Part shown: positions 21,506-24,481 of the stretch, one piece after another | Position numbering within the stretch: the first letter of the stretch is position 1 | How the letters are laid out: each line of letters opens with the position of its first letter | Source: Chlorobiaceae bacterium | GTDB taxonomy: Bacteria; Bacteroidota; Ignavibacteria; Ignavibacteriales; Ignavibacteriaceae | NCBI GenBank assembly: GCA_013824085.1 | Contig: PNNF01000019.1 | Coordinates: forward strand, 1 to 46,234 | Direction: 5' to 3' | Length of the DNA stretch: 46,234 nt | Position numbers and translations under genes: made by a program | The notes under the pieces: model-generated | The model's input: the letters and a program-made list of their open reading frames with translations, nothing else | What the model was told of the DNA's origin: nothing | Database searches by the model: none

Positions 21506-21721
21506 ATGAATAGAGTTGAATTAAAAATTGAAGGAATGAATTGCAACAACTGTATCAAGCACCTTAAAGAAGAATTTCTAAATAATGAAAACATAAATGT
21601 CATTGATGTTCAAATTGGCGCCGCAACATTGGAATATGATGTGTCGAAAATTTCGCGCGATTATCTTGCGGAAATTATTGATGAAGCAGGTTACAAGCTT
21701 GTTGACTTAAAAATAGTTTAG
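21506..21721 (+). CDS. copZ: Copper chaperone-like heavy-metal-associated domain protein
   Basis: This 71-residue single HMA domain has the motif GMNCNNC (Cys13 and Cys16) at the expected place, followed by LxxExLNNENINVIDVQIG and a DEAGYKL ending. It should carry Cu(I) in the cytoplasm and hand it to the CopA pump encoded after the repeat array. A GGAAA ribosome site precedes the ATG. The central residues differ from the usual CxxC dipeptides (Asn-Asn here), so metal preference is not certain. The symbol is given by similarity and by proximity to copA. Confidence 0.85.
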   Translation: MNRVELKIEGMNCNNCIKHLKEEFLNNENINVIDVQIGAATLEYDVSKISRDYLAEIIDEAGYKLVDLKIV

Positions 21722-21742
21722 ACAATTACTTTAAAATCTAAA

Positions 21743-22231
21743 CTTCTGAATTATTTTTTTCAGTCATGTTGAACGAAGTGAAACATCTTGATTTAGATGG
21801 CTCTTAGACTCTTCACTTCGTTCAGAGTGACAGCAGTAGAGATTTTTAAGAGAACTTATGTAGCGACTTCTGAATTATTCTTTTCAGTCATGTTGAACGA
21901 AGTGAAATATCTTGATTCAGATGGCTCTGAGACTCTTCACTTCGTTCAGAGTGACAGCAGTAAAGATTTTTCAGAGAACTTATGTAGCGACTTCTGAATT
22001 ATTTTTTTTAGTCATGTTGAACGAAGTGAAATATCTTGATTCAGATGGCTCTGAGACTCTTCACTTCGTTCAGAGTGACAGCAGTAGAGATTTTTCAGAG
22101 AACTTATGTAGCGACTTCTGAATTATTTTTTTTAGTCATGTTGAACGAAGTGAAACATCTCCATTTAGATGGCTCTGAGACTCTTCACTTCGTTCAGAGT
22201 GACAGCAGTAGAGATTTTTAAGAGAACTTAT
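21743..22231. repeat. Array of four tandem 124-bp hairpin repeats between copZ and copA
   Basis: The units start at 21743, 21867, 21991 and 22115, each exactly 124 bases apart, and the fourth loses similarity near 22231. Each unit holds a perfect 13-base inverted repeat, TGAACGAAGTGAA with TTCACTTCGTTCA (first copy 21770-21782 and 21812-21824). Inside it is a small CATCT/AGATG hairpin, and outside are GTCA/TGAC ends. In units 2 and 3 the inner pair changes C-G to T-G, keeping the fold as RNA. The unit looks like a palindromic intergenic repeat that was tandemly amplified with its flanking spacer. The array ends 15 bases before the copA start. Confidence 0.95.
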
Positions 22232-22246
22232 ATAAAAAATAAAGAA

Positions 22247-24481
22247 ATGAACAGAACAGAAAAAATTACAGTTCCAGTTGAAGGAATGACTTGTGCAAGT
22301 TGTGTTCTTCGTGTCGAAAGAACATTGAACAAAATATCCGGAGTGAAAAATCCAGTTGTAAACTTGGCACTTGAACAAGCAACTTTTGAATATGATTCAT
22401 CAATAGTAAATCTCAAATCAATTGCTGCGAGAATCGATAAGAGTGGTTATAAATTATTATTGCCGGAAAATAAAAAAGAAGAGACAAGTAATCGCGTTGA
22501 TTTAGATAAGAGACAAATGGAAAATTATTTTTTCGTAAAGAAGGAATTTTATTTCTCTTTATTTCTCACAATTCCCGTAAGTGTTATTTCAATGTTTTTG
22601 ATGATACCGCCAATTCAAGAAATATCCGCATTAAATATGGAGAGTTGGAATAAAGTATTTTTTATTTTTACGACGTTAATCCTTTTTAGACCCGGTAGAA
22701 GATTTTTTATTTTGGCAGTTAAAGCAGCAAAACAATTTACTGCTGATATGAATACTTTAGTTGCGATTGGAACTGGCTCGGCTTATGTGTATAGCAGTAT
22801 GGCAATATTTTTTCCAGAATTATTAAACGTAGATCCCGCATCACATCTATATTTTGATACTACTGCAGTGATTATCACGTTGATTTTATTGGGCAAAATG
22901 CTTGAAGCAAAAGCAAAAAATAAAACTTCAGAAGCATTAAAAAAACTAATTGGCTTGCAATCAAAATTTGCAATCGTTGTCAGAAATGGCGTTGAACTTT
23001 TGACTCCAATATTAAAGTTACAAAAAAATGATATCGTTCTTGTAAAACCCGGCAGCACAATTCCTGCGGATGGTGTTATCGTTTCTGGTCAATCAACAAT
23101 AAATGAATCGATGCTAACTGGTGAAAGTTTTCCGATTGAAAAATCTGTTGGTGCTCAAGTCGTTGGTGGGACAATGAATTTATCGGGTTCATTTACTTTT
23201 AAAACAACGGCTATCGGTAAAGAAACTGTCATCTCTAAAATAATTGAGTTAGTTGAAAACGCACAAACATCAAAAGCACCAATTCAAAAATTGGTTGACA
23301 AAGTCGCTTCCATATTTATTCCGATTGTTCTTCTTCTTGCGATTTCTACTTTTGCGATTTGGTATTTTCTTCTCGACGCATCATTCTCAGCAGCGATGAT
23401 TAATTTTATTTCAGTATTGATTATCGCTTGCCCATGTGCATTAGGTCTTGCAACACCAACAGCAATAATGGTCGGGACTGGATTAGGAGCAACGAAAGGA
23501 ATATTAATAAAAAATGTTGAAAGTCTTGAAAAACTTTATAAAGTAACCACAATCGTCTTTGATAAAACTGGAACGTTAACTGAAGGTAAACCGATTGTCT
23601 CAAAAATATTTTCATTTGAGAATTTTTCAGAAGAATCTGTTTTGTCAATTGCAGCTTCTGTTGCAAAAAATTCCGAACATCCTTTTAGTGAAGCTATTAC
23701 AAATTATGCAACTCAAAATAAAATTGAATTAACTGAAGTAAAATCATTTTCATCATTTCCCGGTTTAGGCGCAATTGGAAAATTAGAATCAGGAACTGTT
23801 ATCTATGGAAGTGAAAAATTTATGAATGAAAATAATTTCGATTTAAGTTTGCATAAAAAAAATATAAATGATATTTCAGAGACGCTCAATAGCATTGTCT
23901 TTATTGGGTTCAATAAACAGTTAATTGGAATTATTTCTTTAGAAGATGAAATAAAAGTTGACGCAAAAAAAAGTATTTCTAAATTGAAAGAGATGAATTT
24001 AGAGATGATAATTCTTTCGGGTGATCAAAAAGTGATTGTAGATAACTTGGCGATGCAAGTGGGAATTGAAAAAAGTTTTTCTAAATTAATGCCTGAACAA
24101 AAGGTTGAAAAAATAAAAGAATTGCAGTCTGCAGGAAAAACTGTTGCGATGGTTGGAGATGGAATTAATGATTCTCCTTCGTTGGCTCAAGCTGACGTTG
24201 GCGTGGCGATTGGAACAGGAACTGATATTGCAATTGCAACTGCAGATGTAACATTGATAAAAGGACAACTGCCTACTTTAATTACAGCAATTAATATTTC
24301 CAAAAGAACAATTAATACAATAAGACAAAATTTATTTTGGGCTTTTATTTATAACGTCGTTGGAATTCCAATCGCAATGTTGGGAATATTAAATCCAATG
24401 TTCGCTGCCTTTGCGATGGCTTTTAGTTCAGTAAGTGTAGTATCAAATTCGTTGCGGTTACGATATAAAAAATTGGATTAA
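22247..24481 (+). CDS. copA: Copper-exporting P-type ATPase
   Basis: This is a 744-residue P1B-type ATPase that pumps Cu(I) out of the cytoplasm using ATP. One HMA domain carries MTCASC (Cys16, Cys19). The transmembrane part follows, with the metal-transport CPC at 395-397, TGES at 291-294, the phosphorylated Asp439 in DKTGT, SEHP in the nucleotide-binding domain, and [10 protein letters not shown]. All key residues are present. The start at 22247 is chosen because it begins the HMA domain; an in-frame ATG at 22169 lies inside the last hairpin repeat and would add 26 repeat-derived residues. It is co-oriented with copZ, with the 124-bp array between them. Confidence 0.96.

Follow-up and report, generated by a model that had tools for sequence, protein, structure and literature searches.

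A tandem array between copZ and copA in an Ignavibacteria genome is probably an amplified MITE with IS5-type ends

The copZ and copA genes of an Ignavibacteria metagenome-assembled genome (MAG) are separated by a tandem array, which lies in the 46,234-nucleotide stretch of DNA analyzed here (the window; contig PNNF01000019.1). It is very probable that this array is a worn, tandemly amplified MITE that goes back to one insertion of an IS5-ended element followed by duplication in place. A MITE origin, indicated by the ends of the units, the target duplications (TSDs) of relatives, the dispersed copies, and an IS5-type partner, accounts for both the hairpins and the period without a copper-specific purpose. 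The earlier guess of copper regulation is thus replaced by a concrete, testable origin, and a MITE family is described, for which an IS5-type partner is likely and the size of the target duplication has been measured.

Array and unit structure between copZ and copA

TRF reported 4.0 copies with a period of 124, 96% matches, 0% indels, and a score of 889 at 21742–22231, and the spacing between the repeats was 124, 124, and 124 in a repeat search of the window, which agrees with the four units with few differences given in the preliminary description. The 13-base perfect inverted repeat that had been seen in each unit (TGAACGAAGTGAA/TTCACTTCGTTCA) is indeed present in all four, and its exact 13-mer has eight matches in the 2.65-Mb genome, all of them inside the array. 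On one side of the array, a plus-strand ORF at 21506–21721 encodes a copZ-like copper chaperone of 71 aa with an HMA domain (PF00403, 30 bits), which CopZ family models match below cut-off. On the other side, the plus-strand ORF at 22247–24481 encodes a copA-like copper-translocating P-type ATPase of 744 aa (TIGR01511, 578 bits with a cut-off of 397). The names copZ and copA are therefore backed by HMA and P1B-ATPase family matches. The array lies between the copZ end at 21721 and the copA ATG at 22247, and as its last base is 22231, the 15 bases previously counted before the copA start hold.

The array also separates the two genes, as had been claimed. The copZ–copA gap is 525 bp here and 29 bp once the array is subtracted, whereas most of the relatives checked, among Ignavibacteria with copZ and copA adjacent, keep the pair within about 100 bp (intergenic distance about −8 to +101 bp). 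A distance of −95 (L077) is the product of an uncertain start codon. One exception of 903 bp (L065) apparently holds other coding sequence, and a search of that gap revealed neither a GTC-type REP nor a TIR pair. The closest copA relatives belong to Ignavibacteria, the group to which the genome is assigned on this basis, with the best match just 51% identical, and a plasmid search with the array gave no match. Judged from these sequences, a single insertion into a compact operon would be the natural reading of a 525-bp gap set against short ones.

The copA frame stays open back into array unit 4, with an ATG at 22169 (770 aa, window 22169–24481), so a gene caller could misplace the copA start inside the array. 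The units also yield spurious small ORFs of 61–69 aa.

A better phasing divides the 124-bp unit into a 119-bp element and a 5-bp spacer, 119 bp being a common length among single copies of the family and 5 bp the size of its target duplication. The array then reads element-ATGTA-element-ATGTA-element-ATGTA-element-ATATA, with all features on the plus strand. Unit 1 (21739–21857) has the left end TAAACTTCTGAA, which is without the first G of the family end and shows two mismatches to it, and scores 98 bits with profile R1, a profile built partly from the array's own sequence. Units 2 (21863–21981), 3 (21987–22105), and 4 (22111–22229) were placed by end search, phasing, and profile and have the left end GCGACTTCTGAA. 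Phasing by ends puts the ATGTA spacers at 21858–21862, 21982–21986, and 22106–22110, and ATATA, which shares four of five bases with them, at 22230–22234; the latter is likely the outer right copy of the target duplication. No TSD copy is recognizable in the left flank of unit 1 (AAATC versus ATGTA). While the left ends of the array are near-intact, the right end is worn, with about 7–8 of 12 bases matching (TTAAGAGAACTT in unit 4).

Repeated insertion of separate MITE copies side by side, each into the same 5-bp target, would equally give a 119 + 5 arrangement with the same five bases at every junction. However, the four units all share one orientation and are 92–97% alike over 119 bp, whereas outside the array the closest copy in this genome matches a unit at 76% identity, and serial insertion is accordingly most unlikely. 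Among the variable columns, column 23 splits units 1 and 2 from units 3 and 4, and columns 46, 56, and 110 split units 1 and 4 from units 2 and 3. All four combinations therefore occur at columns 23 and 46, which is most simply read as exchange or conversion between units, although MAG assembly could fake the pattern. To this extent, the earlier idea of a hotspot for unit gain and loss is compatible with the sequence. The unit count of four rests on one MAG assembly, and a 124-bp repeat at 96% identity in 75 contigs raises the question of whether misassembly of short repeats accounts in part for the copy number or for the mosaic of variants. This seems unlikely to us, as private unit variants (columns 1–3, 18, 51, 52, 67, and 101) and regular junctions speak against it, and the MITE nature of the unit is independent of the unit count.

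A dispersed MITE family and its IS5-type partner

A search of this genome with one unit revealed weaker matches on other contigs, to full or partial copies, and relatives gave more. Reading copies with their flanks defined 12-bp family ends (left, GAGACTTCTGAA; right, TTCAGAAGTCTC). When 164 genomes of the order were searched, the exact paired-end pattern had matches in five other genomes, whereas a reversed control pattern had 0. In the complete genome G001, many ends form converging pairs about 80–150 bp apart. Elements of the family are 80–152 bp long, non-coding, and bounded by terminal inverted repeats. With the genome census done by searches, a profile made from 14 copies located worn copies at 22 or more additional sites of this genome, and the dispersed copies were intergenic where checked. 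Good family copies are present in other genera of the order as well. Profile matches were obtained in 32 of 59 genomes, which is an upper bound for the MITE itself because many of the relatives' matches cover the inner REP part only. Several one-mismatch end matches standing alone in apparent coding sequence of this genome were judged to be chance, and a 1.5-kb TIR-like pair (L207) was set aside, as it sits within an open ATPase/protease-like gene.

Short exact target duplications are what cutting by a DDE transposase usually leaves behind. Among 36 non-identical elements with recognizable ends, a set to which searches for these ends had contributed, 15 are immediately flanked by an exact 5-bp direct repeat, compared with 0.57 expected when left and right flanks are drawn from different elements. 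Exact repeats of 4 bp and of 6 bp were each seen three times in the same set.

The family right end also lies 150 bp downstream of a broken IS5-type transposase in G151. Searching the order with the C-terminal part of this transposase gave 13 close homologues, and in 11 of them the right end occurs 102–211 bp past the aligned C terminus (10 with no more than two mismatches and the eleventh with three). One intact IS5-type element (L235) possesses a 330-aa ORF, both ends, and an AAATA/AAATA duplication, and its ORF matches NF033581 (IS5 family) at 240 bits, PF01609, and DUF772. The autonomous relatives with matching ends are this element and L236, in other genomes of the order. On the strength of these shared termini, IS5-family elements with the same ends are likely the source of the transposase. 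No IS5-type transposase of this kind was detected when this genome was searched, and its MITE copies are therefore probably stranded.

More distant transposase relatives bear different ends, GGCACTTCTAAAAAC. A related IS5-type group (L244, L246, L247, and L249), with ends GGCACTTCTAAAAAC...GTTTTTAGAAGTGCC, looks like a sister element with changed ends. The PF01609 loci L224, L225, L227, L228, and L230–L232 had no pair of family-type ends.

REP hairpins and the copper operon

Each element encloses a head-out pair of GTC-tagged REPs. In unit 1, the left arm, GTCATGTTGAACGAAGTGAAACATCT, occupies 21763–21788 on the plus strand and repeats at 21887, 22011, and 22135, and the right arm, GTCACTCTGAACGAAGTGAAGAGTCT, occupies 21806–21831 on the minus strand and repeats at 21930, 22054, and 22178. 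The GTC tag, the self-complementary stem opening with A-T pairs, and the head-head dimers match the description of CGTC-tagged REPs. Across 35 REP arms, the outer stem positions (five per arm) are paired in 169 of 175 cases, compared with a mean of 137 and a maximum of 153 in shuffles, a comparison that is no formal probability because the arms are related to one another. The stems differ between arms (for example, ATTCT/AGAAT, ACTCT/AGAGT, ATGTT/AACAT, and ATATT/AATAT), and the two arms of one unit have different stems, each self-matching. This suggests that every arm folds alone as a separate hairpin and that the long unit hairpin is a consequence of two arms being present. Nearest-neighbour DNA folding of a single arm gave no excess stability, so the support for the arm hairpin comes from covariation. 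As RNA, one unit folds with z = −4.1 relative to shuffles, and the whole spacer region with z = −5.0.

Such pairs might instead form a plain REP/REPIN cluster, with tandem REP dimers that a RAYT (Y1/HUH tyrosine transposase) produces and maintains. The head-out pair with covarying stems in each unit, the presence of REPs without outer ends in relatives, and one RAYT-like gene in this genome (L001) would all fit this possibility. However, homology between copies reaches past the REPs to the inverted ends with their 5-bp target duplications, the RAYT-like gene scores below the model cut-off (63 versus 80 bits), and its locus has GTAG-type and related palindromes instead of a GTC-type REP. We therefore consider a RAYT-driven cluster very unlikely. 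Free high-copy REPs are not seen either, as the strict REP pattern finds just eight arms in this genome, all within the array.

The RAYT-like gene itself (L001:1453–2241) contains a GTAGGGGC-type palindrome in its reading frame (GADLRVCP), and related GGGGCGAACCTGCGTGTTCGCCC palindromes lie on its flanks. In many MITE copies of G001 (L179 and L183–L194), one REP loop is larger because it contains a nested palindrome, CCTGCCTGCCGGCAAGGCAGG. Same-ended MITEs with other internal hairpins occur in G151 (for example, GTCATTCTCGCGAAAGGGAGAATC; L182 and L202) and G062 (for example, GTCATGCTGAATTCATTTCAGCATC; L178 and L220), and, as far as their sequences tell, it looks as if REP cargo was exchanged within the same ends.

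The preliminary description had proposed that the hairpins stabilize upstream mRNA, attenuate copA expression, or tune the chaperone-to-pump ratio. A selected copper-regulatory array, in which the hairpins would act on copA by attenuation or fix the copZ-to-copA ratio and selection would tune the unit number, is in keeping with a strongly folding array that sits between the two genes. However, the same element recurs at 22 or more other sites of this genome and is not confined to copper genes, and the copZ–copA gaps of relatives are short. Moreover, no terminator-like (intrinsic) site was found in the array region, and Rfam gave no match at the gathering score, the weak ones being far below it. 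These searches thus revealed no terminator or known RNA family that would mark a copper-responsive riboswitch or attenuator, and most relatives have no long gap. Attenuation of copA is not favored on these grounds, and a selected array is distinctly unlikely; of the earlier interpretation, the separation of copZ from copA stands, and the variant pattern among units fits the idea of gain and loss. As the hairpins are strong, mRNA stabilization is possible, and an effect on copZ message stability or copZ–copA coupling is plausible.

Under the preferred reading, that of an amplified MITE, a nonautonomous element of about 119 bp with IS5-type ends and a head-out REP pair would have inserted once into a short copZ–copA gap, using the transposase of an IS5-family element, and would have made a 5-bp TSD to leave TSD-element-TSD. 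The element and one TSD copy may then have been duplicated by replication slippage or unequal exchange, processes that the hairpins and flanking direct repeats presumably favored, to give (119 + 5) × 4, and later exchange between units would have shuffled the variants. Both this order of events and the mechanism of slippage or exchange are what we infer. The units are now probably immobile, but recombination may still lengthen or shorten the array. Provided that the operon is still transcribed as one unit, the array would add about 0.5 kb of strongly folded RNA; it is probably a passive spacer that weakens copZ–copA coupling, and it may protect the upstream copZ end. Overall, we regard the array as most likely a remnant of mobile DNA with a possible effect on the operon, not as a switch built for copper, and a neutral or mildly disruptive mobile-element relic is the most economical view.

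Comparison with known systems

MITEs, IS5 elements, and CGTC-tagged REPs have all been described before. In the searchable literature, with most subscription papers and ISfinder outside its scope, we found no prior description of this MITE family, of REP dimers within IS5-type ends, or of a bacterial tandem array made of a whole MITE plus a TSD-sized spacer. Only unrelated papers came up in literature searches for the TIR, the REP core, and SERSEE, a spurious peptide of that core.

Like prokaryotic IS-derived MITEs (PMC10969869), the present elements are short, non-coding, and mostly intergenic, with inverted ends, target duplications, and an autonomous IS relative; however, their interior is a head-out REP pair, and here the whole element stands in a fourfold tandem with a TSD-sized spacer. 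They share the terminal sequence GAGACTTCTGAAAAATT, or one near it, with IS5-family insertion sequences (NF033581), of which one intact copy has the AAATA duplication, whereas the array units are without a transposase gene and such an IS is undetected in this genome. With the CGTC-tagged REPs, including neisserial dRS3, they have in common the GTC tag (TGTC variants allowed), the A-T stem start, and the head-head dimers (PMC3733652). In contrast, the stem here consists of five outer pairs, a GA/GA interruption, and two inner pairs, and the REPs are enclosed in IS5-type ends, with the eight strict arms of the genome all in the array. CGTC REPs are reported to be predominantly head-head dimers with no dedicated transposase, and their mobilizer was given as unknown (PMC3733652). 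The IS5-ended MITE is one possible carrier for GTC-tagged REPs. We tentatively put forward, as a possibility on which we would not yet rely, that GTC-tagged REPs have spread in this order at least partly as passengers of IS5-family MITEs, and that an inserted MITE with its TSD can become a recombining satellite in an operon.

RAYT-mobilized REPINs (PMC3116915) also consist of paired inverted REPs able to form one long hairpin, whereas the elements here have extra inverted ends with 5-bp target duplications and no cognate RAYT was found in this genome. The BrickBuilt MITE of Porphyromonas gingivalis (PMC4596501) similarly ties tandem repeats to an intergenic MITE, but its 23-bp repeat lies inside the MITE, whereas here the whole MITE is the repeat unit. 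The 119 + 5 structure points to a way in which one insertion could become the starting point of a tandem array within an operon; such a route is more familiar from satellite DNA of eukaryotes (PMC9659126).
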